A stretch of DNA of 64,000 nt from Lachnospiraceae bacterium. GTDB taxonomy: Bacteria; Bacillota; Clostridia; Lachnospirales; Lachnospiraceae. Made by a program: the position numbers and the translations under genes. This document shows, piece after piece, positions 15,054-63,690 of the stretch. The notes beneath the pieces are model-generated. The model searched no databases. It saw only the letters and a list, made by a program, of their open reading frames with translations, and was not told the DNA's origin. Every line of letters begins with the position of its first letter. Position 1 is the stretch's first letter. The DNA lies in contig CAJTEM010000020.1 in the NCBI GenBank assembly GCA_910575255.1, positions 1-64,000 of the forward strand. Direction: 5' to 3'.

Positions 15054-15362
15054 CAATGGCATTTAGTTAAGTTTTACCGAGAGATACGCCTTGGAAAAAG
15101 GAGCGGAAAGAGGCCGAAAATAGTCTGATGATTTTTCCGGTTTCGGGATCAAGAATTCCTAAAATCCCTGATTTTTGCTAAGTTCGAAACGAAGATCCAC
15201 AAACTCGCTTCGCTCAGACAGTGTGGATTTTCGTTTCAACGCAAAACTCAGAAATTTAAGGACTTCTAAATCCCGGCAAAGTCAAAATTGTCAGACTATT
15301 TTCGGCCTCTTGCCGCTCCTTTTTCCAAGGCTGAATTTCTCTCTGTCTAAACTAAATGACAT
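15054..15362. repeat. Large intergenic palindromic element, most complete ends
   Basis: The outer arms from 15088 (gccttggaaaaaggagcgg) pair with 15331 and inwards. The middle arms and central motif (ctcgcttcgctcagacag) lie near 15210-15230. Both ends still carry the terminal box, caatggcatttagttaag at left and aaactaaatgacatg at right. It lies between pdaA and a stretch of gene remnants and contains no supported gene. Confidence 0.85.
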
Positions 15363-15429
15363 GAGGATTGCGGGAGCACAAAGTGCGGAGCAATCCGGTA
15401 TCAGAGGGGTCAAAAGGTCTTTTGACCCC
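15361..15429. repeat. Second dispersed repeat (R2), copy 1 with terminator hairpin
   Basis: It starts atgaggattgcggga and has a short stem ggattgc/gcaatcc, then a hairpin ggggtcaaaag (15406-15416) with cttttgacccc (15419-15429). The first 56 bases match 21346-21401 with one difference. It abuts the terminal box of the palindromic element. Confidence 0.8.
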
Positions 15430-15684
15430 AACATCATGACATTGTGGATGAATAGATGCCGAGAATTTGAGAATGTTATCAAAAATACTTGTATCAGAGA
15501 ATTCCTTCTTATGTTAGTAGAAAAACTGAATAGATAACAATCGCAAAATTAGGTATAATTATCTAGAAAATAGAGAAAAAACAAATAAAATATAGGAATA
15601 TTCTACGATATTTGGAAGCAGCCGCATCCTTGTTGAAGAATATAGTGGGCAATATAACTAAAAAACAGGAGGTAAAAGACTTTT

Positions 15685-15900
15685 GTGGGAATAGCGATTG
15701 TACCTGTTTTACAATGCACTCAACTGGAAGAAGCTCCTTATAGCAGATGGATTTTCCAATATCCGGATACAGGAGAATAGGTAAGGCTTTGTTTTGGCTT
15801 TTGTGTATTAAAAACGGAAGATGAAATCATACTGGTGGACTGTAGAGCTGCCAATGACAAGGAATTAGCAGCGATGAACGGAAATATTATCTCTTTGGCA
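15685..15900 (+). pseudogene. Remnant of an MBL-fold hydrolase N-terminus, interrupted by a stop
   Basis: An AGGAGG site precedes a GTG at 15685. The frame reads through a plausible N-terminus to PDTGE, meets TAG at 15778-15780, then continues in the same frame to LKTEDEIILVDCRAAND, the strand-turn that in metallo-beta-lactamase-fold enzymes reads ILVDTG. The HxHxDH zinc motif is never reached, because the sequence passes into another remnant near 15900. It is a degraded gene fragment; the exact subfamily is not clear. Confidence 0.5.
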
Positions 15901-15904
15901 GATA

Positions 15905-16108
15905 ATGAAAGAAGCTTTGAGATTGAAAGGCTCTCCTGCAAAAGTAAAGAGGACATACACACCTGTCCGAAACAAGCAGGGCATCAAGCTGGCAGAGGGA
16001 ACGGGAATCGATTCGGCAAAGAAGCTGATTGCGGTTGTGATCGGAAACGGAGTGGAGGCAGAAGCCAAAAAGGCAATTTCCCATGGTGCGGACGTCCAGC
16101 ATCTTTAA
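15905..16108 (+). pseudogene. Fragment resembling electron-transfer flavoprotein alpha subunit
   Basis: The stretch translating to AVVIGNGVEAEAKKAISHG followed by AD matches the conserved AVVIGN...A(K)KAI..GAD segment of EtfA. A stop follows within a few residues, and NPAF is found in the next frame (near 16110). Only a small part of EtfA is present and it is fused out of context to the preceding remnant, so it cannot be functional. Confidence 0.5.
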
Positions 16109-16172
16109 ATCCGGCTTTTCCAGCACAATATATCAGGTTTTAGAAAATTTCAAAAGATGTAAACTGGTGCTG

Positions 16173-16191
16173 TTCCGTAAGTGATAGGAAC
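16173..16191. repeat. Direct repeat copy 2 (TTCCGTAAGTGATAGGAAC)
   Basis: An exact second copy of the 19-base sequence at 15035-15053. It lies between the EtfA-like fragment and the promoter region of the Fic gene, where a weak TTGGAT (16247-16252) and TATACT (16271-16276) pair is seen. Confidence 0.7.
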
Positions 16192-16327
16192 ATTATTTTT
16201 GCTTCTTTATTCCTTCGGCAAAAATGTTTTTTTAAGATAAGTGTAATTGGATTTATTGCCGATAATATGTTATACTATAAAGCAGATTCGTGTAAGGATT
16301 GACTTGACTGACAGCGGAGGAGGGCGG

Positions 16328-17215
16328 ATGAGAAATCTCTCAGTTCATGAAATAGCGAAAAAATGGAAGATATCGGAAAGGAGCGTAAGAAATTATTGTG
16401 GCCAGGGACGTGTAAATGGAGCATTTCTTACCGGAAAAACATGGAATATACCCGAAGATGCTGAAAAACCGGAACGTTCTAATAAAAGGAAGGCTCAGCT
16501 GTCTTTACTGGATATTTTGCAGGATCAAAAATCAGGCAAATATCCGGGAGGGATTTATCATAAAACGCAGATTGACCTGACCTATAATTCAAATCATATG
16601 GAAGGCAGCCGTCTAACCCATGACCAGACCAGATATATTTTTGAAACCAATACCATTGGCGTGGAAAATGAAGTGCTTAATGTGGATGACGTAATTGAGA
16701 CAGCAAATCATTTCCGATGTATTGACAGGATCATTGATCATGCAAAATCTGTTTTGACAGAGAAGTTCATTAAGGAGCTTCATCTGACTTTGAAAAGCGG
16801 AACCAGCGATTCCAGAAAAGAATGGTTTGCGGTGGGAGATTATAAGAAACTGCCAAATGAAGTAGGGGGTGTGGAAACTGCGCTTCCGGAAGAAGTTGCC
16901 TGTAAGATGAAAAGATTACTGACAGAGTATAACGCTAAAGAAGAAAAAACTTTAGAGGATATTCTGGACTTCCATGTAAAGTTTGAAAGAATTCACCCAT
17001 TCCAGGACGGGAATGGCCGTGTGGGCAGATTGATTATGTTTAAGGAATGTCTGAAATATAATATTGTCCCGTTTATAATTGAGGACAATCTGAAACTGTT
17101 CTACTATCGGGGACTGAAAGAGTGGGAAAACGAAAAGGGCTATCTGACGGATACCTGCCTGACAGCACAGGATAAGTATAAGGCGTATTTGGACTATTTC
17201 AGAATTGGATATTAA
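16328..17215 (+). CDS. Fic-domain protein with N-terminal helix-turn-helix
   Basis: A 295-residue protein. Residues 1-50 resemble a helix-turn-helix of the excisionase/MerR-like kind (EIAKKWKISERSVRNYCGQGRV). The Fic core carries the full active motif HPFQDGNGRVGR starting at H223. An inhibitory motif S-x3-E-G is present (S88 to E92-G93), marking class II Fic enzymes held off by their own N-terminal helix. Fic proteins transfer AMP or other nucleotide parts from NTPs to target proteins. The start at 16328 is chosen for the GGAGGAGG site; the frame opens 27 codons earlier. No antitoxin gene is adjacent, as expected when the inhibitory helix is built in. Repeats and remnants surround it, suggesting an accessory gene. 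Confidence 0.85.
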   Translation: MRNLSVHEIAKKWKISERSVRNYCGQGRVNGAFLTGKTWNIPEDAEKPERSNKRKAQLSLLDILQDQKSGKYPGGIYHKTQIDLTYNSNHMEGSRLTHDQTRYIFETNTIGVENEVLNVDDVIETANHFRCIDRIIDHAKSVLTEKFIKELHLTLKSGTSDSRKEWFAVGDYKKLPNEVGGVETALPEEVACKMKRLLTEYNAKEEKTLEDILDFHVKFERIHPFQDGNGRVGRLIMFKECLKYNIVPFIIEDNLKLFYYRGLKEWENEKGYLTDTCLTAQDKYKAYLDYFRIGY

Positions 17216-17246
17216 AAGTTCATTCCCCAAAATAAAATGCGGAGCA

Positions 17247-17286
17247 ATCCGTGGTATCACAGGTGTCAAAATGCTTTTTGACACCT
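17247..17286. repeat. Second dispersed repeat (R2), divergent copy
   Basis: It keeps tgcggagcaatcc and the following hairpin, here aggtgtcaaaa (17261-17271) with ttttgacacct (17276-17286). Compared with copy 1, both arms have changed together (ggggtc/gacccc to ggtgtc/gacacc). It sits right after the Fic gene and may terminate it. The remaining bases to 17513 show no other feature. Confidence 0.65.
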
Positions 17287-17512
17287 ATATCTGTTATGCT
17301 GCGAAACAAACAAAGAAATAGCGGGAGAACGCGGAGATAATAAGCGATACAGAAATAGGGCTTCAGGAACTGTAAGAAAGTTGTCATACTCTTTACGGGG
17401 AAAATATGGTATGATCAGGGAAACAAAAGGTAACAGTTCAAGAGTTATCTGAACTGTTACAACAAAAGAGGGATATCTCAGGAGTAAATAATAAAGAACA
17501 GGAGATTCATTC

Positions 17513-18760
17513 ATGAGAAACCGTAAGAGTTTGCTGGCAATCGGCCTCAGTATAGGGATGGTAGGCAACCTGATCTGGTTTTGCCTGCCGGCTTATGCAG
17601 ATGTCACAGTGCCGCCGCACCCATCGGCGCAGGAGAATGGCGGCATGTTGCCGGGGCAGGCGCTGCCCGGAGGGCTGCCGGGAACAGGAACAGGTGCGAT
17701 TGCCGTAGGAAACGGACAGCCGGGAAGCGGGACGGTGACGGCAGGCAGCGGACAGAAGGGACAGGGGCCGGGAGGCGCACCGGCGGTTTCTGACTCGCCG
17801 GTATCCGTGGGTCCGGGAAGCGGTCAAAACATGCCTGGAGACCCGAAGGACGGGCAGCAGCCTGCAGGCACGGTAAGCGGGCAGCAGTCTACAGAGGCAG
17901 GAGCCGGGCAACAGCCGGCAGACGGCAATGCAAAGGGGCAGCAGGCAGCGCCAAACCAGCCAGTGCAGACACAATTGCAGGAGCCGGAGATCGCAGCCGA
18001 AGGAGCGGTGCTGATCGATGGTGCGACAGGGAAGATATTGTATGGGAAAAATGCGGATCAGCAGTTCTATCCGGCCAGCATTACGAAGATCATGACAGCT
18101 TTGCTGGTATTAGAGCGCTGCGCACTGAATGATATGGTTACTTTTTCCGCCGGTGCGACGACGAATCTGGAATCCGGCGCAGTGTCGCTGGATATCACGG
18201 AGGGAGACCGGCTGACAGTGGAGCAGAGCCTTCACGGTCTGCTGATGAAATCGGCAAATGAGATCGGCAACGGGCTGGCAGAGCATGTGGCAGGGAGTGT
18301 CTCGGACTTTGCAGAGCTGATGAATGCCAGGGCAAGGGAGCTCGGATGCACGAATACCCATTTTGTCAATCCTCATGGGCTGAATCATTCTTCCCATAAG
18401 ACGACGCCCCATGATATGGCTCTGATTATGCGGGCAGCACTGCAGAACAAGGATTTCCGGCGGATTGATACGACGCTTACCTATGATTTTCCGGCCACTC
18501 AGAAAGCATCGGCCAGAACCATCACCATGGGCCATAAGATGATGTATCCTTCCGATTCCCGGTATTATGAGGGAATTATCGGGGGAAAGACCGGTTACAC
18601 CTCACTGGCAGGCAATACGCTGGTAACCGGAGCGGAGAGAAACGGGGTACAGCTGATTGCGGTGATTATGAAGTCAAAGCAGACGCATTATACGGATACC
18701 AAAGCGTTGTTGGATTACGGCTTTTCCAATTATCAGACTTTGATGGGGAATCAGGGATAG
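17513..18760 (+). CDS. D-alanyl-D-alanine carboxypeptidase (peptidase S11, low-molecular-weight PBP)
   Basis: A 415-residue protein. A signal peptide (about 1-29, ending AYADV) is followed by a 120-residue Gly/Gln/Pro/Ser-rich linker built from imperfect G-Q-Q repeats. The S11 domain then shows the SxxK motif (S189, K192), SAN (S247-N249) and KTG (359-361), so all active-site motifs are present. It trims the terminal D-Ala from peptidoglycan pentapeptides outside the cell. The long linker between signal and catalytic domain is unusual and probably lets the enzyme reach into the wall. The usual C-terminal beta domain and amphipathic anchor are absent or very short. It is likely monocistronic. 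Confidence 0.88.
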   Translation: MRNRKSLLAIGLSIGMVGNLIWFCLPAYADVTVPPHPSAQENGGMLPGQALPGGLPGTGTGAIAVGNGQPGSGTVTAGSGQKGQGPGGAPAVSDSPVSVGPGSGQNMPGDPKDGQQPAGTVSGQQSTEAGAGQQPADGNAKGQQAAPNQPVQTQLQEPEIAAEGAVLIDGATGKILYGKNADQQFYPASITKIMTALLVLERCALNDMVTFSAGATTNLESGAVSLDITEGDRLTVEQSLHGLLMKSANEIGNGLAEHVAGSVSDFAELMNARARELGCTNTHFVNPHGLNHSSHKTTPHDMALIMRAALQNKDFRRIDTTLTYDFPATQKASARTITMGHKMMYPSDSRYYEGIIGGKTGYTSLAGNTLVTGAERNGVQLIAVIMKSKQTHYTDTKALLDYGFSNYQTLMGNQG

Positions 18761-18775
18761 TAGGGAAGACAGCTG

Positions 18776-18811
18776 CTGACGCAGCCGCGCCTTGGCGCGG
18801 GTGTGCGTCAG
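18776..18811 (+). terminator. GC-rich hairpin after the carboxypeptidase gene
   Basis: ctgacgca and tgcgtcag enclose an inner ccgcgcc/ggcgcgg stem. A short T stretch follows only later (near 18822). It is a plausible terminator between the carboxypeptidase and the TetR regulator. Confidence 0.5.
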
Positions 18812-18863
18812 GACGCAGACCTTTTATCAGGATTAGGTTTGGAATATCGGAGGAAGGAAAGCC

Positions 18864-19448
18864 ATGGCCAAGAAGAATGCCCGCAACACCCGCAGCAGAA
18901 TTGTAAATGCAGCATGGAAGTTATTTTATGAGCAGGGGTATGAGGATACCACAGTGGAAGAGATTATCGAAGTGTCCCATACCTCCAAGGGTTCCTTTTA
19001 TCATTATTTTGACGGCAAGGATGCACTGCTCGGCACTTTAAGTTCACTGTTTGACGAGAAATATCAGGAGCTTTCCCTGCAGATGGATCCGGAATCAGAT
19101 GCTATGGAAAAGCTGTTGTTTTTAAACAGTGAACTGTTTGCCATGATTGAGAACCGTGTTTCGGTAGAGCTTTTGGCACGGCTTTTGTCGACGCAGCTGG
19201 TGACCAATGGGGAAAAGCATCTCCTTGACAGAAACCGTACCTATTACAAGCTGCTCAGAAAGATCATCAGCGAAGGGGTAGAAGCAGGAGAACTGAACGG
19301 CCAATCCAGCGTCAGCGAGATGGTGAAAATCTATGCCATGAGCGAGAGGGCGCTGATGTATGACTGGTGCCTGTGCGGCGGAGAATATTCCCTGCGTCAG
19401 TACAGCGCTGCCGTTTTGCCGTCATTTCTGAGCAGTTTTTTGCCCTGA
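18864..19448 (+). CDS. TetR/AcrR-family transcriptional regulator
   Basis: A 194-residue protein with an N-terminal TetR helix-turn-helix: RIVNAAWKLFYEQGYEDTTV, then EIIEVSHTSKGSFYHYFDGKDALL (about 13-57). The C-terminal ligand domain has no recognisable signature. It has a GGAGG site and its own start after the hairpin at 18776. It ends six bases from the stop of the convergent symporter gene. Its target is unknown; neither neighbour is divergent from it, so local autoregulation only is suggested. Confidence 0.85.
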   Translation: MAKKNARNTRSRIVNAAWKLFYEQGYEDTTVEEIIEVSHTSKGSFYHYFDGKDALLGTLSSLFDEKYQELSLQMDPESDAMEKLLFLNSELFAMIENRVSVELLARLLSTQLVTNGEKHLLDRNRTYYKLLRKIISEGVEAGELNGQSSVSEMVKIYAMSERALMYDWCLCGGEYSLRQYSAAVLPSFLSSFLP

Positions 19449-19453
19449 GAGGG

Positions 19454-20986
19454 TTATTTTCCCACTTCTTCAAATTCTTTTACAATCTCTTCCGACGGCG
19501 CTTTGGTTGCCAGAGAGACGAGTACGATTGCTGCCAGAGCCAGCAGAAATGCAGGAAGCAGCTCGTAGATATTCCAGGCGCCGCCCAGTGGCTTCACCAG
19601 ATATTTCCACACAAAGACCATGATACCGCCGGTGAACATACCGGCCAGGGCTCCCTGGAAATTGCTGCGTTTCCAGAAAAGAGCTGTCAGGACTACCGGT
19701 CCAAAGGAGGCCCCAAAGCCCGCCCAGGCAAAGGATACGATGTTGAATACGGAGCTGCCGGGATCCCAGGCCAGTACCAAGCTTACCAGAGCGATAGCGG
19801 CAACGGTTACACGCGCGGCCAGCATGGAAGCCTTTTCGGAGAGCCGGATCTTAAAAAAGTCCTGCATCAGATTCTGAGAAACTCCGGAAGCTGCCGTCAA
19901 AAGCTGGGAATCTGCCGTAGACATGGTACAGGCCAGAATGCCGGCCAGCACGACACCAGCCACTATGGATGCCAGGAAGCCATATTGTCCCAAAAGTCCG
20001 GCCAGCCGAATAATCGTGGTTTCCGATTCTGCACTGGAAGCAAACAAGGGGATTCTTCCGGCAATGGATGCCCCATATCCGATGATTCCGATCAGGATAG
20101 CTACGAACATGGAGATCACCACCCAGACCGAAGCGATCCGGCGGGATACCCGGATCTCCTTTTCCTCACGGATTGCCATAAACCGCAGAAGAATATGCGG
20201 CATTCCGAAATATCCAAGTCCCCAGGCGCACATGGAAAGCATATTCAAGGTTCCATAAGGAACCGCTGTATTGGATGCCCGGTCATGAAGATATACCAGG
20301 CTCAGATAACCGTCCAGGGAACGGGCGTTATCGGCTACAGCCTGCCATCCGCCGGCAACCCGGACACCAAAGAATACGATGACAATCAAGGCAAGAGTCA
20401 TAACAATGCTCTGAATCAGATCCGTGGTGGACACTGCCAGAAAACCGCCCATGACCGTATAGCCGACGATCACCAGCGCCCCTAAAAGCATGGCCAGATG
20501 ATAGTCCACGCCAAACAGGCTGGAAAACAGAGTGCCAACGGCTTTAAACCCGGACGCCGTGTAGGGAATAAAAAAGATCAGAATGATAATGGCAGCAATA
20601 CACATGAGAATATTCCGGTCATCCCGGTAACGCCGCGAAAAAAAGTCCGGGATGGTGATGGCGCCGCAGGCCATGGAATAGCGCCGCAGTCTTTTGGCAA
20701 CAATCAGCCAGTTGAGATAAGTGCCGGCTGCCAGCCCGATCGCGGTCCAGCCGGCGTCTGCGATTCCCGACAGATAGGCGACACCCGGAAGCCCCATGAG
20801 CAGCCAGCTGCTCATGTCCGATGCCTCCGCGCTCATCGCTGCCACCAGCGGCCCCAGCTTCCGGTTGCCCAGATAAAAGCCTTCTGCAGAGCTGTCACTG
20901 TTTTTGCTGAAATAGTAGCCGATATAGACCATCAAAATCAGATATGCCGCAATGGCAAGAAGAATTCCTATTTGTCCTGTATTCAT
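19454..20986 (-). CDS. putP: Sodium:solute symporter, PutP-like (proline)
   Basis: A 510-residue membrane protein of the SSS family with about 13 hydrophobic segments. The N-terminal GFYLGNRKLGPLVAAMSAEA, the SDMSSWLLMGLPG motif and the later AWAGFGASFGPVVL match PutP-type Na+/proline symporters. The length is typical. It would import proline (or a related solute) with Na+, useful for Stickland-type fermentation or osmotic balance. The gene is monocistronic with an aggagga ribosome site. The upstream 300 bases up to 21340 are A/T-rich with no clear promoter that I can name. The substrate is inferred from family only. Confidence 0.85.
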   Translation of the reverse strand: MNTGQIGILLAIAAYLILMVYIGYYFSKNSDSSAEGFYLGNRKLGPLVAAMSAEASDMSSWLLMGLPGVAYLSGIADAGWTAIGLAAGTYLNWLIVAKRLRRYSMACGAITIPDFFSRRYRDDRNILMCIAAIIILIFFIPYTASGFKAVGTLFSSLFGVDYHLAMLLGALVIVGYTVMGGFLAVSTTDLIQSIVMTLALIVIVFFGVRVAGGWQAVADNARSLDGYLSLVYLHDRASNTAVPYGTLNMLSMCAWGLGYFGMPHILLRFMAIREEKEIRVSRRIASVWVVISMFVAILIGIIGYGASIAGRIPLFASSAESETTIIRLAGLLGQYGFLASIVAGVVLAGILACTMSTADSQLLTAASGVSQNLMQDFFKIRLSEKASMLAARVTVAAIALVSLVLAWDPGSSVFNIVSFAWAGFGASFGPVVLTALFWKRSNFQGALAGMFTGGIMVFVWKYLVKPLGGAWNIYELLPAFLLALAAIVLVSLATKAPSEEIVKEFEEVGK

Positions 20987-21345
20987 AATTGTCCTCCTCT
21001 TAAAATGACGTCATGTTTTCCTGCTTGTGATCCGGGGCATCCCAATCCGATGGAAGCGAAGCAGCCCTCCCCGGCGAAACACAGAATGGGCACATTATAG
21101 CACGACAAAAAATAGAACGCAATACAGAACAAATTATAGACTAAATACCGTACTATTATATTTAAAACTATAAAAAATCAAGTAAACACAAGAAAAAAGC
21201 ACAATACTAAAAACATAATAGTATTAAACGGTTATTGGAATAGAATTGTATTTGTTTTCGTACATGGGTTACTGTTTTAAGGGCGGGCTGTTTCCGGATC
21301 CGGTAGCCACCAGTCCCTAATGCAAGTATCCTGTGTATCAATGTT

Positions 21346-21401
21346 ATGAGGATTGCGGGAACACAAAGTGCGGAGCAATCCGGTATCAGAGGGGTCAAAA
21401 G
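21346..21401. repeat. Second dispersed repeat (R2), copy 2, truncated
   Basis: It matches 15361-15416 at 55 of 56 bases. It then breaks off inside the hairpin (ggggtcaaaag followed by acctatg instead of the second arm) and runs directly into a coding fragment at 21399. Confidence 0.8.
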
Positions 21402-21500: not shown

Positions 21501-21549
21501 AAAATCACCACCTGCTTTCAAATAGCATATTGTTTTTGAAGCCATTCAG

Positions 21550-25802: not shown

Positions 25803-25803
25803 G

Positions 25804-26982: not shown

Positions 26983-26984
26983 GT

Positions 26985-30410: not shown

Positions 30411-30639
30411 GTCAGCTTTGTCGGAGGTAACAGAGATGCTGTGTCCTGCGTGTGACGTCATTCTTTATGAGAGGGTGGCATTCGATATATTTGTCACGGA
30501 AAGTATTTTGAAACAGTTATATTGATAATTACTGTTCAGTGAAAATCAATGAACCAGATTGTATTTGCAGGATGTTTTTCCCGGAACTGATATCTGCCAG
30601 CCTCGAAGAAACCATTTACATGAAACAATATCAATGAGG

Positions 30640-30930
30640 AGGAAACGAGAAAAGCAGCCAGGAAACAGGGGAGAGAAGCCACCGGAACTGGTCTGCAGAT
30701 TTTGACTTTGCAGAGATTTAGAAGTCCTTAAATCCCTGAATTTTGCGTAGAAACGGAAATCCACACTGTCTGAGCGAAGCGAGTTTGTGGATTTCCGTTT
30801 CGCTTTTAGCAAAATCCAGGGATTTTAGGAATTCTTAATCTCGAAACCGGAAAAATCCGCAGACCAGTTCCGGTGGCTTCTCTCCCCTGTTTCCTGGCGT
30901 ACCTTCTGGTAAAAGCAAACTAAATGATAT
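30640..30930. repeat. Large intergenic palindromic element
   Basis: The outer arms ccaggaaacaggggagagaa (from 30659) and its complement (to 30897) pair perfectly for about 45 bases. The middle arm gaagtccttaaat is at 30721 and gattttaggaattctt near 30820-30838. The central motif ctgtctgagcgaagcgag is near 30766-30783. The right end keeps ggcgtaccttctgg and caaactaaatga. It lies between the island border and the CxxC protein gene. Confidence 0.85.
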
Positions 30931-31072
30931 TGGGATAGCAAATGTAGATTTTTTTGCTCCCCCGCTTCCTTTTCCTCCGAATTTATAGTATACTAAATCA
31001 TAATCGCAAAAGCACACCCCGCTGACAGGTATTTTTGCAGGCCGGGGACATGGATGAAGGACAGGAAATACC

Positions 31073-40949: not shown

Positions 40950-41075
40950 GTTGTCAAATACCTTTGCTATTTAGTTGGGAGAAGGGATATTCAGCGTGAA
41001 AACAAGGGGAGATCCGTAGTGGCTCTCCCCTTGTTTTCATACGTACCTTTTGCTAAAACTTAACCAAATAACATG
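40950..41075. repeat. Minimal palindromic element
   Basis: The ends are those of the dispersed palindromes (ctatttagttggg left; cgtaccttttgctaaaac and ttaaccaaataacat right). Between them lies only one 16-bp stem, tgaaaacaaggggaga (40997-41012) with its complement (41024-41039). The middle arms and central motif are absent. The left flank gggatattcagcgtg is shared with the element at 48110. Confidence 0.75.
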
Positions 41076-42494: not shown

Positions 42495-42545
42495 TCGGGC
42501 TTGCGGTTCTCCCCTTGTTCCAAGGCGTACCTTCTGGAACTTCAC
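42495..42545. repeat. Remnant of a palindromic element end
   Basis: gcggttctccccttgttcc then aaggcgtaccttctggaac matches the right outer arm and end box of the dispersed palindromes. The other arm is missing. It lies between the SpoIID-like gene and the carAB promoter. Confidence 0.6.
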
Positions 42546-47807: not shown

Positions 47808-47845
47808 AGGTGCTTTACTCTGTGCTTTCTTGGGGAATGGGGTTC

Positions 47846-48072
47846 CGGGGGGGGGGGGGGGGCAGTCTGTCGGGGATTTTTTCCGGTTTCGGGGTTAAGA
47901 GGCCCTAAAGTTTCTGAATTTTGCTAAAAGCAAAACGAAAATACCCAAACTCGCTGCGCTCAGACAGTGGGTATTTTCGTTTTAACGCAAAATCCAGAAA
48001 CTTAAGGGCCTCTAAACCCCTGCAAAGTCAAAAATCCCCGACAGACTGCCCCGGCCCCCTCCCTTCCTCCAG
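47846..48072. repeat. Large intergenic palindromic element with a G16 tract
   Basis: The arms ggcagtctgtcggggattt (47861-47879) and aaatccccgacagactgcc (48034-48052) frame middle arms (gaggccctaaagtttctg/cagaaacttaagggcctc) and the central motif ctcgctgcgctcagacag near 47951-47968. Just outside the left arm is a run of 16 G (47847-47862), opposite a C-rich stretch at 48050-48068. It lies between the orphan ATPase and the next element. Confidence 0.85.
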
Positions 48073-48109
48073 GGCTGAGCACTACCGATGGCCTCTTATT
48101 TGAAGCTGT

Positions 48110-48410
48110 CATGTGATTGTCAGTAGTCTGGGAAAAGGGGATATTCAGCCTGGGAATCAGGGGAGAACCGCAGCCGGAAATGGTCTGCGGATTTTGACTT
48201 TGCAGAGATTTAGAAGTCCTTAGATTTCTGAGTTTTGCGTTGAAACGGAAATCCACACTGTTTGAGCGCAGCGAGTTTGTGGATTTCCGTTTCGCTTTTA
48301 GCAAAAATCAGAAATTTTAGGAATTCTTAATCTCGAAACCGGAAAAATCCGCAGACCATTTCCGGCTGCGGTTCTCCCCTGATTCCCAGGCGTACCCTTT
48401 GGGATAGCTT
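48110..48410. repeat. Large intergenic palindromic element, adjacent copy
   Basis: The outer arms cctgggaatcaggggagaac (from 48149) and complement (to 48390) pair for about 45 bases. The middle arms gaagtccttagatttctgag and ctcagaaat-type complement follow, with central motif ctgtttgagcgcagcgag near 48256-48273. The orientation is opposite to the preceding copy, so two elements lie nearly back to back. The gap to 48581 has a TATAAT at 48503 likely serving the next gene, with no clear -35. Confidence 0.85.
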
Positions 48411-53026: not shown

Positions 53027-53041
53027 GGAAGGCGATCCAAG

Positions 53042-53329
53042 AGGTACGCCTTGGAATAAGGGGGAGTGCGGCGGCTCTCAGCTCTGGAAAAAAGGTTCCC
53101 CGGATTGCGTTTGCAGGATGCCTAGAAACTCTTAGCTCGCAGGAATCTGCGTCAGGAGCAAAAATGCAGCTGTCTGAGCGCAGCGAGTTCTGCATTTTTG
53201 CTCCTGCCTTTAGCAGATTCCTGCAAGCTTAGAGTTTCTGCATCCGAAACCCGAGATCCGGGGAACCTTTTTTCCAGAGCTGAGAGCCGCCGCGCTCCCC
53301 CTTTTCCATGGCGTACCTTCTGAAAATAC
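53042..53329. repeat. Large intergenic palindromic element, subfamily 2
   Basis: The ends aggtacgccttgga and tccatggcgtacct enclose arms gggggagtgcggcggctctc and ctctggaaaaaaggttcccc with their complements. Boxes gcaggatgcctagaaactc and gagtttctgcatccgaaac follow, then the inner arm gcaaaaatgcagctgtctg and central motif gagcgcagcgag near 53176-53187. The middle arms differ fully from the 30640/48110 type while the layout is the same. It lies between the ABC cassette and the antiporter operon. Nothing else is seen up to 53416. Confidence 0.85.
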
Positions 53330-53415
53330 TTCAGCGAGGCATAAATTAACAGGATAGTAACTTGTATTTCCCAGGAAACGGAGTTATAATGTTTGGGAAA
53401 AAGGGGGACAGGCTC

Positions 53416-55930: not shown

Positions 55931-55931
55931 C

Positions 55932-56309: not shown

Positions 56310-57859
56310 GCCTGGTACAGAACTTTCCGTTTTTCTCCATTATCCTGGCCATGTTTTCGGGAATTCTTTCCTCTGTGCTGGACGGAAAAAAGGCGAGGAA
56401 TGTAAGCCTGGCAGCGATTGTTATGACCACGGTCATGTCTGCGGCAGTGCTGCATTTCTGTGTCAGGACCGGGCAGAGCTATACGTATATGATGGGACAT
56501 TTTCCGGCTCCCTGGGGCAATGAGATCCGGGCCGGGGTGCTGGAGGGACAGACGGCAGTTCTGTTTGGAGTGGTGATGTTTCTGGCTGTTGTGGGAGGGA
56601 TGGACCACACGGCCATGGATGTGGAGGAAAGCAAGCAGAATCTGTTTTACATTATGATTGATCTGATGCTGAGCTCGCTGCTGGCTCTGATCTATACCAA
56701 TGATCTGTTTACTGCCTATGTGTTTGTGGAGATCAATACCATCGCCGGGTGCGGACTGATTATGATCCGGCAGATCGGACGCAGCCTTTCCTCAGCAATC
56801 CGTTATATGATTATGAGCCAGTTGGGCTCGGGGCTTTTTCTGATCGGACTCAGCCTTTTGTATGATGTCACCGGACATCTCTTGATGAGTCCGGCAAAGG
56901 AAGCCGTGGCAGCAATCGAGGCAGCAGGGCTTTATGAGGTTCCGATGCTGGTGATTATGGCTGTGGTCAGCGTGGGACTGGCGATCAAAAGCGGGCTGTA
57001 TCCCTTCCATTACTGGATTCCGGATACTTATGGCTACGCCACCCCGACAGCAAGTGCGGTTCTGTCCGGGCTGGTGTCGAAGGGATATATTTTTCTGCTG
57101 ATCAAGATTTTCTACCGGGTGCTGGGAAGGGAGAATGTCATTGCAAGCCAGATTGTAAACGTATTGTTTGTGTTTGGACTGGCAGGAATGCTGATGGGCT
57201 CGGTTCATGCGATCCTGGAGCGGGATACCAGAAGAATGATCGCCTATTCGTCGGTGGCGCAGATCGGATATATCTATATGGGAATCGGTCTGGGGACGCA
57301 GGCTGGGATGGTGGCGGCGCTCTTCCACATGTTTACCCATTCAGCGACAAAGGCGCTTTTGTTCATCAGTGCGGTAGGGCTTTATGAGGTGTCCGGGGAT
57401 CGGAAGGATTTCCGGAGCCTGCAGGGTTCCGGGTATCGTAATCCACTGGCAGGGATCGGGTTTGCGGTCGGCTCTTTGTCCATGGTGGGCTTTCCCATGC
57501 TGTCCGGCTTTATCTCCAAACTGCTGTTTGCCACCTCGGCGCTCCAGAGTCCTCATAAAATGCTGCCGACAGTGATTGCTCTGGCGATCAGCACGATATT
57601 GAATGCCGTATATTTTCTGCGGCTGGTGATCACGCTTTACACGATACCGGAAGCAGAAAATGCTGCTGGCAAAGGAAACGATAAGCGGCAGAGAGTATTC
57701 GTGGCCGCGAAAGGTCAGGGGGAAGCGTCGGCGTTTCCAGCCAGTTCCCGAAAACTGCGGCTGGCAATTGTCAGTTTTATTCTGCTGAATCTGGTACTGG
57801 GACTCTGCTCTCAGCCGATTGTAAACCAAATCGGAAACGGTCTGACGATGTTTGAGTAG
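56306..57859 (+). CDS. Proton-translocating antiporter subunit (MrpD/NuoN-like), first of four
   Basis: A 517-residue membrane protein with about 14 segments of the Proton_antipo_M family. The TM5 glutamate is in AYVFVEINTIAGC and the TM7 lysine in VGLAIKSGLYPFHYWIPD; both are essential in this family and both are present. ATPTASAVLSGLVSKGY and AYSSVAQIGY are also typical. It overlaps the mrpC stop (ATGA). Confidence 0.88.
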   Translation: MSLVQNFPFFSIILAMFSGILSSVLDGKKARNVSLAAIVMTTVMSAAVLHFCVRTGQSYTYMMGHFPAPWGNEIRAGVLEGQTAVLFGVVMFLAVVGGMDHTAMDVEESKQNLFYIMIDLMLSSLLALIYTNDLFTAYVFVEINTIAGCGLIMIRQIGRSLSSAIRYMIMSQLGSGLFLIGLSLLYDVTGHLLMSPAKEAVAAIEAAGLYEVPMLVIMAVVSVGLAIKSGLYPFHYWIPDTYGYATPTASAVLSGLVSKGYIFLLIKIFYRVLGRENVIASQIVNVLFVFGLAGMLMGSVHAILERDTRRMIAYSSVAQIGYIYMGIGLGTQAGMVAALFHMFTHSATKALLFISAVGLYEVSGDRKDFRSLQGSGYRNPLAGIGFAVGSLSMVGFPMLSGFISKLLFATSALQSPHKMLPTVIALAISTILNAVYFLRLVITLYTIPEAENAAGKGNDKRQRVFVAAKGQGEASAFPASSRKLRLAIVSFILLNLVLGLCSQPIVNQIGNGLTMFE

Positions 57860-57870
57860 GAGAATCAATC

Positions 57871-59430
57871 ATGTATGCAATCGAAGAAAATATCATTTTG
57901 CTGCTGCCGGTCGTGTTGCCGACGGCAGTGGGGACAGCGATCCTTATGGTTCCGGGATTTGACAGGAACCGGGGGCGGATAATCGCTGCAGTGTTGGGAA
58001 CCCTTCTCGTGGAGGCAGCGCTGGCGGGGCTGGCTCTGGCAACCGGCGGCAGTCTGGTTTTGTGGCAGCTGACAGAGACCGTGGCTCTCAGCTTTCATGT
58101 GGATGGGATCAGCCGCCTGTTTGCTGCGCTTACCGTGGGAGTCTGGCTGCTGGTGGGAATTTATTCCGTATCCTATATGAAACAGGAAGAGGAGGAACGC
58201 CGGTTTTTCGGATTCTATCTGATTGTACTGGGAGTTCTGGTGGGGCTGGATTTTTCGGGAAACCTGATTACCTTGTATGTATTTTATGAGCTGATGACCC
58301 TGACCTCTCTGCCGCTGGTTCTTCATGAGCGGACCAAGGAGGCAGTGGCGGCAGGACTGAAATATCTGTTCTATTCGGTGGCCGGCGCATTTCTTGCCCT
58401 GTTCGGAATCTTTTTGCTGATGCAGATCTGCGGGAACCAGCCCTTTGTGCCGGGCGGCTTGATCGTACGCCTTCCCGGGGAGGGACTGGTGTCTTTCCAG
58501 GAGGGGATGGGGAGCGGTGGGACTCCGGTGAAAGAGGGGCTGTTTCTGGCTGCTGTTTTCTGCATGCTTGTGGGCTTTGGCGCCAAGGCAGGAATGTTTC
58601 CGCTTCATGGCTGGCTGCCCACGGCCCATCCGGTGGCTCCGGCGCCGGCCAGTGCAGTACTGTCCGGAGTTATCACGAAATCAGGGGTGCTGGCAGTGAT
58701 CCGGGTCGTTTATTTTGCGGTGGGGCCAAAGGTGCTTCGGGGAACCTGGGTACAGCAGGTGTGGATTCTTCTGACATTGCTCACGGTATTTATGGGTTCC
58801 ATGCTGGCATATAAGGAACCGGTGCTCAAGAAACGTCTGGCCTATTCCACGGTCAGCCAGGTTTCCTATGTTCTGTTTGGTCTGAGCATGCTGCAGAGTC
58901 AGGCATTTGTGGGAGCCTTGTCCCATGTGGTGTTCCATTCCCTGATCAAGAACGCCTTGTTTCTCTGTGCCGGCGCTGTTATTGTGATGACCGGGAAGAC
59001 GCGGGTAAGGGATATGAGGGGGCTGGGAGAGAAAATGCCGCTGCTGCTTGGCTGTTATACCGTGGCGGCTCTGGCTTTGGTGGGGATCCCACCGGCCAGC
59101 GGTTTTGTCAGCAAATGGTATCTGGCCGTAGGAGCGCTGGCTTCGGGAACGGGAGTCTGGGCCTGGCTGGGACCGGTGGTTCTGCTGGTGAGTGCGCTTT
59201 TGACGGCGGGATATCTGCTGCCGCTGACGATCCAGGGCTTTTTTCCGGGAACATACGGTAAGGAGGATGTGGATGCCGGGCAGGGGAAGGCCGGACCAGA
59301 GGCAAGGCAGGAACCGTCCGGGTGGATGATGGGCCCGATTCTCATTCTGACGGCAGGAGCGCTGCTGTTTGGCTGTTTTCCGGGCGCCTTGCTTGCTGCG
59401 CTTGAGACACTGGCCGGGGCAGTGCTGTAA
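57871..59430 (+). CDS. Proton-translocating antiporter subunit (MrpD-like), second of four
   Basis: A 519-residue Proton_antipo_M protein. YVFYELMTLTSLPLVLHE carries the TM5 glutamate, and GFGAKAGMFPLHGWLPTAHP the TM7 lysine followed by APAPASAVLSGVITKSG. It is longer at the C-terminus than the previous one, with a hydrophilic loop (YGKEDVDAGQGKAGPEARQ) before the last segment. It begins 12 bases after the preceding stop. It is likely a second proton channel of the complex. Confidence 0.87.
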   Translation: MYAIEENIILLLPVVLPTAVGTAILMVPGFDRNRGRIIAAVLGTLLVEAALAGLALATGGSLVLWQLTETVALSFHVDGISRLFAALTVGVWLLVGIYSVSYMKQEEEERRFFGFYLIVLGVLVGLDFSGNLITLYVFYELMTLTSLPLVLHERTKEAVAAGLKYLFYSVAGAFLALFGIFLLMQICGNQPFVPGGLIVRLPGEGLVSFQEGMGSGGTPVKEGLFLAAVFCMLVGFGAKAGMFPLHGWLPTAHPVAPAPASAVLSGVITKSGVLAVIRVVYFAVGPKVLRGTWVQQVWILLTLLTVFMGSMLAYKEPVLKKRLAYSTVSQVSYVLFGLSMLQSQAFVGALSHVVFHSLIKNALFLCAGAVIVMTGKTRVRDMRGLGEKMPLLLGCYTVAALALVGIPPASGFVSKWYLAVGALASGTGVWAWLGPVVLLVSALLTAGYLLPLTIQGFFPGTYGKEDVDAGQGKAGPEARQEPSGWMMGPILILTAGALLFGCFPGALLAALETLAGAVL

Positions 59431-59443
59431 CGGAGGGATGGTT

Positions 59444-61039
59444 ATGAAAGAAATACTTCTGGCAGTGCCGGTTTTGCTTCCGATTGCAGGAGGGGCAGGG
59501 ATGCTGGCCATGCATCTGGGTACCGGAGGAAAAAATGACGACCGGCGCCTGATGCTTTTGACCGCTGGATTGGTGGCGGTGAACAGTCTGGTGATTTTCT
59601 GGCTGCTGCGGTTTGGGACGGGAGCCGGCCTGGTGCTGTTTCGGTTGTTCGGGAATCTAACCGTGCGCTTTGAGCTGGATCCGATGGGGAGAGTATTTGC
59701 CGGCCTGATTGCCTTTTTGTGGCCGTTTGCAACACTGTATTCTTTTGAATATATGAAGCATGAGGAGAGGAAGCCGACGTTCTTTGCCTACTATGTGATG
59801 ACCTATGGGGTGACATCCGGGATCGCCCTGGCCGGGAATCTGGTGACCATGTATCTCTGTTATGAAATGCTGACTTTGGTGACCTTCCCGCTGGTGCTTT
59901 TTCCTATGACAAAAGAGGCCAAGAGGGCCAGCCGCCGGTATCTGTACTATTCCATCGGCGGGGCCGCGTTTGCTTTTATCGGGCTGGTGTTTGTGCTGAG
60001 CTTTTCCAGAACCGGAAATACAGATTTTATACCAGGAGGGGTGCTGAATCTGGAAGCGGGCAGAGCGCAGCGAAATCTGCTCCTTCTGGTATATGTGCTG
60101 GCGTTTTTCGGCTTTGGAGTCAAGGCGGCGCTTTTTCCGCTGCATGGCTGGCTTCCGAAAGCCACGGTGGCCCCGACACCGGTGACGGCGCTTCTGCATG
60201 CAGTGGCAGTGGTAAAATCCGGCGCCTTTGCTATTCTGCGTTTTACGTATTTCAGTTACGGGACGGAATTTTTGCGGGGAAGCTGGGCACAGGAGATCGT
60301 GATGGCCGCGACGTTGGCAACCATTGTTTTTGGCTCTACCATGGCAGTCCGGGAAATTCACTGGAAACGGCGCTTGGCCTACTCTACGGTCAGCAATCTT
60401 TCTTATATTCTGTTTGGAGCCGCAATGATGAGTCCTTTGGGACTGGCAGCTGCCCTCAGCCATCTGGCAGTACATGCCTTCATGAAAATCTGCTCCTTTT
60501 TCTGTGCCGGGGCAGTGATGCATCAGACGGGAAAGACTCAGGTGTATGAGCTGGATGGTCTGGGAAAGGAAATGCCTGTGACCTTTGCCTGTCTGACGGT
60601 GGCCAGCTTATCGCTGATGGGGATTCCGCTGTTTGGCGGCTTTATCAGCAAATGGAATCTGGTACAGGCAGCATTTGCCTGCGGCAGCAGAAGTGACGGA
60701 ATGATGTCGGAGAGTGCAATTGCCCTGCCGGCTGCTGCGGGAGCTGGGGTATGGCTGCCCTATGTGGGAGTGGCAGTTATCCTGTATTCGGCATTGATGA
60801 CCGGGATCTATATGCTGACCGTGCTGGTGCGGGCATATTTTCCCAAAGTGGCGGTTGGGGATACAGGAGGAGAGGAGGGCGGGAATTGCAGGAGCCAGGA
60901 GGGCAGGACAAAGTTTCGGGATCCTGGCTGGATGATGCTGACGCCTCTTCTGATTTTTGCGGCTGTGATTCTTGTCCTGGGACTGCATTCGGCTCCGCTT
61001 ATGCGTCTCTTGGCAGAGATAGGGGGTGAAGCGGGATGA
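59444..61039 (+). CDS. Proton-translocating antiporter subunit (MrpD-like), third of four
   Basis: A 531-residue Proton_antipo_M protein. The TM5 glutamate lies in YLCYEMLTLVTFPLVL and the TM7 lysine in FGVKAALFPLHGWLPKAT, which together with VAPTPVTALLHAVAVVKSG gives a full active set. Two in-frame ATGs lie at 59438 and 59444; the second has the better spacing to GGAGGG. Its stop overlaps the fourth subunit (ATGA). Confidence 0.87.
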   Translation: MKEILLAVPVLLPIAGGAGMLAMHLGTGGKNDDRRLMLLTAGLVAVNSLVIFWLLRFGTGAGLVLFRLFGNLTVRFELDPMGRVFAGLIAFLWPFATLYSFEYMKHEERKPTFFAYYVMTYGVTSGIALAGNLVTMYLCYEMLTLVTFPLVLFPMTKEAKRASRRYLYYSIGGAAFAFIGLVFVLSFSRTGNTDFIPGGVLNLEAGRAQRNLLLLVYVLAFFGFGVKAALFPLHGWLPKATVAPTPVTALLHAVAVVKSGAFAILRFTYFSYGTEFLRGSWAQEIVMAATLATIVFGSTMAVREIHWKRRLAYSTVSNLSYILFGAAMMSPLGLAAALSHLAVHAFMKICSFFCAGAVMHQTGKTQVYELDGLGKEMPVTFACLTVASLSLMGIPLFGGFISKWNLVQAAFACGSRSDGMMSESAIALPAAAGAGVWLPYVGVAVILYSALMTGIYMLTVLVRAYFPKVAVGDTGGEEGGNCRSQEGRTKFRDPGWMMLTPLLIFAAVILVLGLHSAPLMRLLAEIGGEAG

Positions 61040-63108
61040 ACCTTGGGGGAAGTTTAAGCATTCCGGGGCTGTGCGGGCATGGGCTGCATTTCCAGACAGA
61101 CGGATTCCGGCTGGTATACCTGGCAGTCGCGGTGCTGATGTGGAGCATCAGCGGGATCTTTTCACAGGAATATATGGCGCATTATGAAAAGCGGCGGCGG
61201 TACGATTGGTTCTTCTGGGCCACCTTTGTGGCTACGGCAGGAGTTTTTCTGTCTGCGGATTTTTTTACCACCTTTGTGTTTTTTGAGATCATGTCCTTTA
61301 CTTCTTATGTATGGGTGGCTTTTGATGAGAGGCCGGAAAGCCTGCGGGCAGCAGAGACGTACCTGACTGTGGCAGTGATCGGCGGCATGGTGATGCTGAT
61401 GGGGCTTTTTCTTCTGGAGGATCTGTGCAAAACGCTGAGGTTTGACGAGCTGGCAAAGGCAGCAAAGAGGGTTCCGCGAAGCCGGCTTTATGTGGCAGGC
61501 GGGCTTTTGCTGTTCGGATTCGGAGCCAAGGCGGGCTGCTTTCCGCTGCACATCTGGCTGCCCAAGGCACACCCGGTGGCTCCGGCGCCGGCCAGCGCCC
61601 TGCTGTCAGGAATTCTGACCAAGGCAGGGGTGTTCGGGATCATTGTGATTTCCTGCAGAATGTTTGGCGCAGACCAGCTTTGGGGTACGGGAATCGCCTG
61701 CCTGGGAACAGTTACCATGTTTTGGGGGGCTCTTTTAGCTCTGTTCTCTGTGAATCTGAAGCGTACCCTGGCATGCTCTTCGGTGTCCCAGATCGGATTC
61801 ATTGTCACCGGGATCGGCATAAGCTGCCTTTTGCGGGCAGCTGGCGAGAGCGGCGCTATGGCGGTGCGGGGAGCCTTTCTTCACATGATCAACCATTCCC
61901 TGTTTAAGCTGGTGCTGTTTCTGTGCGCTGCGGCAGTCTTTATGAACCTGCATCAGCTGGATCTGAATGATATCCGCGGCTTTGGCAGAAAAAAGCCGTT
62001 GCTTCTGTTTTGTTTTCTGATGGGAGCGCTGGGAATCGGCGGGATGCCGCTGTGGAGCGGATATGTGAGCAAGACCCTGCTGCATGAGAGCATTGTGGAA
62101 TATACTCAGGCGGCAGCGGCAGGACTGCCGGCCGCTTCTGCAGGCAGTGGGACGGAGGTGTCCGGCCGTGTGATTACGGGAATCCTTAACGTGACAGGTC
62201 ATGCGGCTTTCTGGCGGGCGGCAGAATGGATCTTTCTGGTCAGCGGCGGTATGACCGTGGCTTATATGCTGAAGCTGTTTGTCGCATTGTTTGTGGAGCG
62301 TCATCCGGACAGGCAGGAGGAATTTGATAATATGTCGTCCTGCTATATGAGGAGCGCAAGCAAGGCAGCACTTGTGCCGGCAGCGGCGCTTTTGCCCTTG
62401 CTGGGAATGACGGCCCATCAGAGCCTGGATCGGCTGGCGGATCTGGGACAGACGTTTTTCGGCCAGAGCGGACCGGCCCATCGGGTGGATTACTTTTCCT
62501 TCGGCAATCTGAAGGGCGGCCTGATCTCGATCGGTATCGGCATTATCCTGTACCTGACAATCGTCCGCGGCTGGATGATGAAAGGGGAAGTACGGCAGGA
62601 TCGGGAAAGCAACCAAACAGCGTCAGGAAACCGGTACTATCGGGACTGCTGGCCGGCCTGGCTGGATCTGGAGAATCTTTTGTACCGTCCCCTTATTCAG
62701 ACAGCTTTGCCGGGAATCTGCGGCGCGGCCTGCAGGTTCGTGGATCGTTACCTGGTTTCCTGTACCGTAACTGTATTTCTGGCATGTTCGTCCGTTCTCT
62801 GCCGTGCAATGGATCAGCTGACAGACGGGGCGATCCGTCTGGCCAGGGAAAGCACGCACAGCCAGCTTCCCCGGGCGTCAAGACAATCGAGGCCAGGCAC
62901 CGCACAGGCAGGAGGTTTTTTTGCTAAGCAGAAGAGAAGGTGTACAGAAAGAAAAGAACAGCTGGCAGAGCGCCTTCTCTGGCTGGAGAAGCGGATTCAA
63001 AAAAACGGCCGGCTGGTGGAGGAGAGCTTTTCCTTCGGGCTGATGCTGTTTGCCGTCGGGCTGTGCCTGACATTAGGGTATTTGCTGCTGGTATTCGTGC
63101 GGAACTGA
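61036..63108 (+). CDS. Large antiporter subunit (MrpA/NuoL-like), fourth of four
   Basis: A 690-residue protein. Residues 1-420 are a Proton_antipo_M module with FVFFEIMSFTSYVWVAF (TM5 Glu) and GFGAKAGCFPLHIWLPKAHP (TM7 Lys). Residues 420-690 form an extension with several more membrane segments and a basic stretch (FAKQKRRCTERKEQ), followed by a last segment. MrpA is similar but usually carries MbhD/E domains at its end; these are separate genes here. It is the last gene of the operon. Confidence 0.85.
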   Translation: MNLGGSLSIPGLCGHGLHFQTDGFRLVYLAVAVLMWSISGIFSQEYMAHYEKRRRYDWFFWATFVATAGVFLSADFFTTFVFFEIMSFTSYVWVAFDERPESLRAAETYLTVAVIGGMVMLMGLFLLEDLCKTLRFDELAKAAKRVPRSRLYVAGGLLLFGFGAKAGCFPLHIWLPKAHPVAPAPASALLSGILTKAGVFGIIVISCRMFGADQLWGTGIACLGTVTMFWGALLALFSVNLKRTLACSSVSQIGFIVTGIGISCLLRAAGESGAMAVRGAFLHMINHSLFKLVLFLCAAAVFMNLHQLDLNDIRGFGRKKPLLLFCFLMGALGIGGMPLWSGYVSKTLLHESIVEYTQAAAAGLPAASAGSGTEVSGRVITGILNVTGHAAFWRAAEWIFLVSGGMTVAYMLKLFVALFVERHPDRQEEFDNMSSCYMRSASKAALVPAAALLPLLGMTAHQSLDRLADLGQTFFGQSGPAHRVDYFSFGNLKGGLISIGIGIILYLTIVRGWMMKGEVRQDRESNQTASGNRYYRDCWPAWLDLENLLYRPLIQTALPGICGAACRFVDRYLVSCTVTVFLACSSVLCRAMDQLTDGAIRLARESTHSQLPRASRQSRPGTAQAGGFFAKQKRRCTERKEQLAERLLWLEKRIQKNGRLVEESFSFGLMLFAVGLCLTLGYLLLVFVRN

Positions 63109-63138
63109 AAAGGCTACGCTCCACGGAGTGGGGTTCCG

Positions 63139-63348
63139 AGAGGTACGCTCTGGAAAAAGGGTTCCCCGGCTTGCGGGTTTCGGATGCAGAAACTCTAAGC
63201 TTACAGAAATCTGCTAAAAGCAGGAGCAAAAATACAGAACTCGCTGCGCTCAGACAGCTGTATTTTTGCTCCTGACGCAGATTCCTGCGAGCTAAGAGTT
63301 TCTATGCATCCTGCAAACGCAAGCCGGGGAACCCTTTTTCCAGAGCTG
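63139..63348. repeat. Large intergenic palindromic element, subfamily 2
   Basis: gctctggaaaaagggttccc and its complement form the outer arm, then the boxes ttgcgggtttcggatgcag and ctatgcatcctgcaaacgc. The inner arm gcaaaaatacagaactcgct and its complement surround the central motif ctcgctgcgctcagacag near 63240-63257. It runs opposite to the 53042 copy. The left end has aggtacgct while the right end box is lost. Confidence 0.85.
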
Positions 63349-63399
63349 ATATTTGTCGGTGTCGGAAAAAATATTCTATGAAGCTTTTGGCTATCGGTC

Positions 63400-63690
63400 T
63401 CTGGTAATGCTTAGCCTTGTAGGAGGGGAGAAAAGCCGCTGGAACTGGTCTGCCGCTTTTGACTTTGCAGAGATTTAGAAGTCCTTAAATTTCTGAGTTT
63501 TGCGTTGAAACGAAAATCCGCTCTGTCTGAGCGAAGCGAGTTTGCGGATTTTCGTTTCGTATTTAGCAAAAATCAGAAGTTTTAGGAATTCTTAATCTTG
63601 AAACCGGAAAAAGCGGCAGACCAGTTCCAGCGGCTTTTCTCCCCTCCTACAAGGCGTACCTTTCGGTAAAATTAACTAACTGACATTGCT
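63400..63690. repeat. Large intergenic palindromic element
   Basis: The outer arms ccttgtaggaggggagaaaa (from 63415) and complement (to 63654) pair almost without fault. Middle arms gaagtccttaaatttctgag and gaagttttaggaattctt follow, and the central motif ctgtctgagcgaagcgag is near 63523-63540. The right end has ggcgtacctttcggtaaa then ttaactaactgacattg. It lies 50 bases beyond the preceding element and upstream of the PTS gene. Confidence 0.85.

Follow-up and report, generated by a model that had tools for sequence, protein, structure and literature searches.

A family of polar palindromes with a near-invariant tip in a Lachnospiraceae genome that may be non-autonomous transposable elements acting as DNA hairpins

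The first 64,000 nucleotides of contig CAJTEM010000020.1 from a Lachnospiraceae bacterium (assembly GCA_910575255.1), referred to here as the window, carry seven large intergenic palindromes that are members of a genome-wide family. The elements are polar palindromes of 220-340 bp in which the core, with its asymmetric internal loops, is conserved and the tip is near-invariant, and no gene lies inside them. On balance, we believe the members of the family to be non-autonomous transposable elements whose active form is a DNA hairpin. The best reading is an element that resembles both REPINs (paired repetitive extragenic palindromic, or REP, sequences) and miniature inverted-repeat transposable elements (MITEs), and that is recognized as a DNA hairpin by a putative enzyme.

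A genome-wide family built around one tip

The original prediction, made from the window alone, named seven palindromes with a shared plan around a central motif, and all seven exist. The tip motif GTCTGAGCG[A/C]AGCGAG, with up to two mismatches allowed, matches seven times in the window (six exact matches and one with a single mismatch) against 0.12 expected, and none of 100 shuffles reaches seven. One tip and one plan are indeed shared, but the copies fall into two subfamilies, A (15054, 30640, 47846, 48110, and 63400) and B (53042 and 63139). Similarly, the central motif is near-fixed, although its variable base is N rather than A/C alone. Across the genome (5.14 Mb in 106 contigs) there are 133 exact tips (GTYTGAGCGNAGCGAG), with A or C at this base in 102 (GTYTGAGCGMAGCGAG), G in 21, and T in 10. 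All 133 extend into TT (18-mer matches 64 + 69), and relaxing the search to one mismatch gives 146 places, merely 13 beyond the exact ones. The tip comes close to being its own mirror image, so that the reversed-pattern control is not clean (17 + 18 matches when exact, 49 + 54 with one mismatch, and 4 + 4 once TT is added). The DNA heptamer d(GCGNAGC) is an unusually stable mini-hairpin and, as far as sequence can tell, the base preference at the tip fits a GNA triloop of this type.

Of the 102 copies with A/C-type tips, we aligned 95 distinct ones; three lying at contig edges were left out, as were those too short or identical, and the 31 G/T-type tips stand outside the alignment. These comprise 65 A and 30 B copies. 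Homology ends at defined distances from the tip, about -155/+175 in A and -95/+125 in B, and the elements are thus discrete units. From the center outward, the layers are the tip, an inner stem, an internal loop (GCGT versus TTTTAGC), a further stem, a second internal loop (TAGAA..TTA versus TTAG..TTCT), another loop (GACTTTGCA versus CGAAACCGG), a long outer arm, and feet (CAGC versus GCGTACC). Fuller copies continue beyond the feet with CAATGTCA..TTAA and lastly GTTAC..GTAAC, so the end box TTAACTAAATGACATTG noted in the window is present but is not the outermost feature. The left side of the A alignment reads GACTTTGCAG..TAGAAGTCC..GCGTTGAAA and the right side TTTTAGC..TTAGGAATTCTT..CGAAACCGG, which bears out both the layered plan and the fixed left/right asymmetry that gives each copy a direction. 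By eye, certain B cores lie within A-like outer arms. The sole copy that we folded (48130-48409) forms a single DNA hairpin (-109 kcal/mol, z = -18.7).

Two types of short hairpin, 43 or 45 nt long (GCCTTAGCACGCAG..GCCAGTGGC..), are inserted in five A copies, where they occupy two fixed internal-loop sites: TTCTT^AATC (L047, L067, L078) and TTT^AGC (L016, L059).

Arms covary, and the pairing looks kept in DNA

The covariation test was a short version of the R-scape idea, not R-scape itself, applied to the 65-row A alignment; for the null, six alignments were simulated along a FastTree tree, keeping the substitutions the same. At E <= 0.05, 13 of 38,226 column pairs were significant, and all 13 lie on the hairpin register and are paired in 92-100% of copies. 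Arm covariation, as was proposed from the window, is therefore borne out against a tree-based null; in this genome it is located between the feet and the tip. Swapping arms between copies points the same way. Over 31 outer-arm columns in A, Watson-Crick pairing is 95.8% with a copy's own arm versus 64.9% with another copy's arm, and over core columns it is 94.5% versus 83.1% (columns preselected for at least 70% pairing in each case). Together, these results support selection or copying for structure.

If a transcript were under selection, G.T mismatches (or A.C, if the opposite strand is read) should dominate. Subfamily A has no G.T excess over A.C, whether counted as cells (60 versus 64; 21 versus 26 in the outer arms and 39 versus 38 in the core) or as columns (26 versus 29). 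Arm pairing in A thus looks to be maintained at the level of DNA and not of RNA, and the G.U-tolerant compensatory change that marks an RNA hairpin was not found there. The B mismatches tilt the other way, to G.T, although the set is small (19 versus 4 cells and 7 versus 3 columns).

A dispersed structured RNA or a transcription terminator, selected on the transcript, is a rival explanation, and some of the genomic context suits it. With crude, ORF-based gene calls (open reading frames more than 35% inside an element were removed first), 92 of 95 copies overlap the retained ORFs by at most 100 nt, and the elements sit nearer to gene 3' ends (median 75 nt, n = 77) than to starts (164 nt, n = 91). 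A second stem-loop (e.g., GCTTACTTTC..GAAAGTAAGC) can be seen by eye after the big hairpin in several of the Proteobacteria and Bacteroidetes that share the tip (see below), and the lean of B to G.T adds to this. Weighed against them are the mismatches in A, which favor neither strand, and orientation: of 55 copies between same-strand genes, 32 are oriented against the genes and 23 with them. No Rfam family matched the hairpins at threshold in the sources searched, which were the window, 15 loci scanned at threshold, and a further list of 11 loci scanned by E-value (three loci in both); two window hairpins gave chance-level matches far below threshold (mir-5583, E 0.14; Plastid-psbA-2, E 0.86). 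Terminator-like sites at the two window pairs scanned were not clearly above shuffles (3 versus a mean of 1.7, and 2 versus 1.4), which speaks against the bidirectional terminators offered as one possibility in the original prediction. Likewise, structured RNA as the force that matches the arms is not favored by A, with the smaller B set leaning oppositely. Overall, we consider selection on a transcript a very improbable explanation.

Ends, target duplications, and empty sites

The sequence GTTACTKTTCAC occurs 87 times in the genome versus 0 for its reversed control. We defined end pairs as GTTAC..GTAAC 100-420 bp apart, of which there are 12. Their flanking 8 bases are 62.5% identical, versus 28.1% when shuffled (the best of 500 shuffles reached 50%), and other flank lengths, from 4-7 and 9-12 bases, give only 22-34% (33% and 34% for 7 and 9 bases). 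An 8-bp duplication (at least 6 of 8 bases) accompanies 7 of the 12 pairs; the remaining 5 have no clear duplication. Six pairs enclose a tip, and four of these six have 7 or 8 of 8 duplicated bases. The other six have different or tipless interiors, indicating that use of the ends extends beyond the hairpin. Two 144-bp tipless elements with GTTAC ends are found at L339 (275-419) and L045 (632-776), with duplications of 7/8 in one and 6/8 in the other. Two elements on one contig (L335/L336) share an octamer, TGACCGGA, which lies to the left of one and to the right of the other, the expected outcome of recombination between two copies.

A second set of copies comes from a genome of a different genus (G046; 99% complete, although a filter for complete, clean genomes does not count it), where they lie on one 6.9-Mb contig. 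All six of its A/C-type copies have 8-bp duplications, scoring 8, 8, 6, 8, 7, and 8 of 8. Four of these were located by script, and the two whose left ends have decayed were placed by eye and then checked. The elements are 269-289 bp long, and in four of the six, 19-20 of 20 end bases match as terminal inverted repeats. Among the four copies with GTTAC pairs, cores are 94.1% identical between copies, and the outer 66 nt are 74% identical between copies while being 97-100% complementary within a copy. Arms that differ between copies yet match within them have changed in step.

Terminal inverted repeats, a fixed 8-bp target duplication, and a gene-free interior are what ordinary MITEs of a DDE-transposase insertion sequence (IS) would have, with the long interior palindrome there by happenstance. 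Such MITEs would also accommodate the same ends around other interiors, as well as the outermost layer of the window's own genome. In six complete copies there, the match within a copy over the outermost 60 nt is 68-77%, against 87% identity between copies, and this layer therefore shows no arm resetting here. Happenstance fits poorly with the terminal arms of G046, which differ by 26% between copies and are matched within, and with the recurrence of tip and hairpin in other phyla on other flanks. Moreover, the parent IS was not found by exact end patterns in the window's genome and G046, or by a check for IS1595. We regard this explanation as unlikely.

The original prediction envisaged a comparison of filled and empty sites in relatives. 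On the 3' side of the antiporter gene at 61036-63108 (the Mrp-operon 3' end), the window carries a B and an A copy, G212 has a separate A copy truncated by a contig end, and in 11 other relatives there is no tip within 400 nt 3' of the gene. In addition, a prophage contig akin to Mannheimia phages has a hairpin in a 327-bp gap ahead of the L gene, and the matching gap in Mannheimia phage phiMhaA1-BAA410 is 111 bp with no tip. The duplications and this presence or absence among relatives support the suggestion that the palindromes are non-autonomous mobile elements.

Divergent pairs and the search for a partner enzyme

When 131 tips were compared, 18 neighbor pairs were found within 500 bp, whereas chance would give approximately 1.7 pairs in any arrangement. 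Every one of the 18 is divergent (-,+). Divergent pairs also occur in two other genomes (G250 and G492). The arrangement is not universal, however, because pairs among at least 118 loci from named genomes have mixed orientations (8 divergent, 3 convergent, one of these in Luteimonas, and 4 same-strand).

Inverted dimers of this sort, at high copy number, resemble the REP dimers described in PMC3733652. They raise the prospect of giant REPIN-like elements moved by a RAYT (REP-associated tyrosine transposase)/TnpA-REP transposase of the HUH Y1 type, with inverted hairpin pairs recognized as single-stranded DNA. According to PMC6006769, Bacteroidetes Y1 transposases of subclass 2.6 are flanked by atypical structures that have copies elsewhere. 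Several of our results fit badly. The elements have 8-bp duplications, no GTAG foot was noticed by eye, and the 150 flanking ORFs, which fall into 212 families, have no Y1 family within the 25 commonest. We know of no target duplications generated by Y1 transposition. Y1_Tnp was not found in G212 (15 copies) or G217 (4 copies) and was found in element-free genomes (e.g., G200 and G204), and across 24 genomes of the genus its counts do not track element copy number. Y1-driven movement of this kind is, in our judgment, quite unlikely.

Other candidate partners fared no better. The IS1595 transposase is present in 1 of the 24 genus genomes and not in the window's own. The original prediction had suggested a search for a transposase or relaxase gene with the same end boxes; no transposase was seen between GTTAC ends in the window's genome or G046 (exact end patterns only), and the one kilobase-scale end pair inspected (3.25 kb, L334) holds, by eye, ordinary genes, as do the intervals between same-strand copies 1.2-2 kb apart, judging from the look of the genes. 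Among Pfam families beside hairpins, the best was seen in 3 of 150 flanking ORFs (within the 25 commonest of 212 families). The 95 hairpin loci gave 163 flanking ORFs, from which near-identical sequences were removed; the set was capped at 150, and each ORF was cut to 300 amino acids. An all-against-all BLAST of 1,696 ORFs from 110 loci gave a largest cluster of 21 loci, consisting by eye of overlapping, probably spurious ORFs, and a next cluster of 6 loci. A putative Rpn/PD-(D/E)XK-like ORF and a putative AAA-like ORF lie beside single copies, with no second example in 7,399 locus ORFs.

Distribution in relatives, other phyla, and viruses

Distribution is sporadic, with high copy number in some genomes. 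Counting the window's own genome each time, elements occur in 10 of 24 genomes of the genus, 17 of 200 of the family, and 14 of 398 of the phylum (11 of the 13 other carriers in the phylum set have at least two copies). A scan of named genomes found at least 118 stretches with the tip 18-mer, so that taxon counts are incomplete; taxa among the matches listed include Marinobacter, Variovorax, Ralstonia, Stenotrophomonas, Haemophilus, Parabacteroides, Sphingobacterium, Desulfobacula, and Desulfobulbaceae. Because this 18-mer was the search key, cross-taxon conservation of the tip partly reflects how the matches were selected, and it is addressed solely by the arm test and by the controls with a changed tip. 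Of 125 distinct tips (111 loci), 90 form at least 6 of 7 pairs with their own arm, versus 3.8 with arms swapped and 1.7% at random places, and the 125 tips have 97 different 8-mers on their left side. On this comparison, the tip is placed on evidently unrelated arms in Proteobacteria and Bacteroidetes.

In viral contigs, 70 A/C and 23 G/T stretches match the tip (31 + 14 distinct contexts). Controls with a changed loop G or a changed loop A have no matches, and a scrambled pattern has 3. A stem accompanies 11 of the 70 A/C stretches by a 7-pair rule or 14 by an 8-pair rule, and 3 of the 23 G/T stretches by the 7-pair rule or 15 of 23 when up to 5 unpaired bases are allowed (many of them near-identical prophages). 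As most viral matches are stemless, these counts show a sequence preference only. Many viral contigs (L213 and similar) carry GTTTGAGCGAAGCGAGTT within a fixed armless sequence.

A broader proposal is a pan-bacterial class of DNA-hairpin elements (Bacillota, Bacteroidota, and several lineages of Pseudomonadota and Desulfobacterota) for which a universal GNA mini-hairpin tip, and not the end sequence, would be the defining feature. Such elements would spread by a fold-back step at transposition, with one arm as template for the other, through an undescribed enzyme system. We put this forward tentatively, as a possibility about which we have considerable doubt.

A proposed route of movement and the points against it

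If the elements are DNA hairpins that move, the strand with GCGNAGC would extrude, or be exposed as single-stranded DNA, and then fold. The GNA mini-hairpin tip and the core bulges might be recognized in trans by an enzyme of the host or of a mobile element. One arm could be recopied from the other during transposition, or by hairpin-templated repair beforehand, and the arms would thereby be reset. Insertion would follow with an 8-bp stagger and would favor the vicinity of gene 3' ends over that of starts. Loss of the core bulges may put an end to movement of a copy, which would explain why the bulges remain asymmetric.

A number of observations weigh against this account. The 12-nt tip alone shows no stability as DNA or RNA with the folding tool. 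A single-strand mechanism should leave a strand bias, but in the window's genome the bias is weak (58 of 95, p = 0.04; Wilcoxon p = 0.001), and across taxa there is none (56 of 97, p = 0.16). The GCGT and TTTAGC loop sequences recur in merely 20 and 14 of the 125 cross-taxon tips. To these must be added, from the sections above, the lean of B mismatches to G.T, the outermost 60 nt of the window's genome, the end pairs that lack a tip or a clear duplication, and the partner searches (Y1_Tnp, IS1595, Pfam neighbors, and a transposase between GTTAC ends).

Relation to known repeat families

REPs are 20-40 bp long and have an unpaired GTAG or CGTC tag (PMC3733652). The present elements resemble REPs, bacterial interspersed mosaic elements (BIMEs), and REPINs in being high-copy intergenic palindromes made of polar hairpins with inverted dimers (18 of 18 pairs divergent) and bulged stems. 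They differ in length (220-340 bp), in having a common tip and not a tag (sought by eye only), in their feet (CAGC/GCGTACC) and GTTAC/GTAAC ends, and in the 8-bp duplications. With MITEs they share terminal inverted repeats, a target duplication of fixed length, non-coding sequence, and nested insertions, but their arms are copy-specific yet self-matched (the outer arms in G046, and here the arms between feet and tip), and they have a conserved asymmetric core and a tip common to several phyla. In short, with its paired polar hairpins the unit functions like a REPIN, and in its mode of insertion it is like a MITE, but it has neither the size nor the tag of a REP.

ERIC/IRU, NEMIS, bcr1, RUP, and the Rickettsia palindromic elements are intergenic structured repeats of roughly 100-200 bp, to which the likeness is one of general description. 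Flavo-1 (RF01705; above threshold at L182) and Clostridiales-1 (RF01699; window 15363-15396, below threshold) adjoin some copies and are separate sequences, neither of which the hairpins matched. At L182, two inverted Flavo-1 RNA matches (3400-3483 and 4267-4350) flank a compound region containing one hairpin. No description of the elements was found in searches of the open-licence literature. Thus, the two outcomes most damaging to the original prediction, i.e., arms without covariation and membership in a fully described repeat family, did not materialize with the tests available.

Copies in the window and neighboring features

Four of the complete copies form two divergent pairs. The first (47816-48409) joins A-type elements at 47816-48095 (- strand; tip 47950-47965), whose outer right arm continues into a G/C homopolymer, and at 48130-48409 (+ strand; tip 48260-48275, with one T for C). 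The second (63142-63691) joins a B-type element at 63142-63354 (- strand; tip 63240-63255), which begins 34 bp past the end of the antiporter gene, and an A-type element at 63395-63691 (+ strand; tip 63525-63540). Single A-type elements are located at 15053-15366 (- strand; tip 15204-15219) and 30626-30933 (+ strand; tip 30768-30783), and a B core lies within outer arms ending GGCGTACC at 53043-53323 (+ strand; tip 53172-53187).

The partial forms predicted near 1, 118, 40950, and 42495 are present on by-eye reading: an A-type fragment truncated by the contig start (1-105, - strand), a B-type remnant without the tip and most of the core (about 118-202, - strand), outer arms without a core, which was deleted or never present (about 40966-41075, + strand), and a right-end fragment ending GGCGTACC (42502-42537, + strand).

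The window also contains a tandem array at 426-795 with units of ~79 bp (..GAACTGGAGCGCAGCGGAAGTGAGCGCCACTGCGGGGTCCCC..), like units of which occur in L336 near GAGCGAAGCGGAG. Sub-threshold RNA matches comprise a T-box leader at 10121-10398 (86.6 bits versus 93) and Clostridiales-1 at 21253-21388 (32.4 bits versus 48). The Clostridiales-1-like repeat at 15363-15396 noted above adjoins the A copy at 15053-15366.

Significance

If the arms are indeed reset on movement, bacterial transposition includes a templated step on a single strand of which the elements are a record, and to our knowledge REP and MITE models have no such step. The tip common to several phyla offers a direct handle toward a tip-binding protein. 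Finally, the elements fall at contig breaks, sit 3' of a large number of genes, and may cause rearrangements, and in these ways they would shape the genomes of their hosts.

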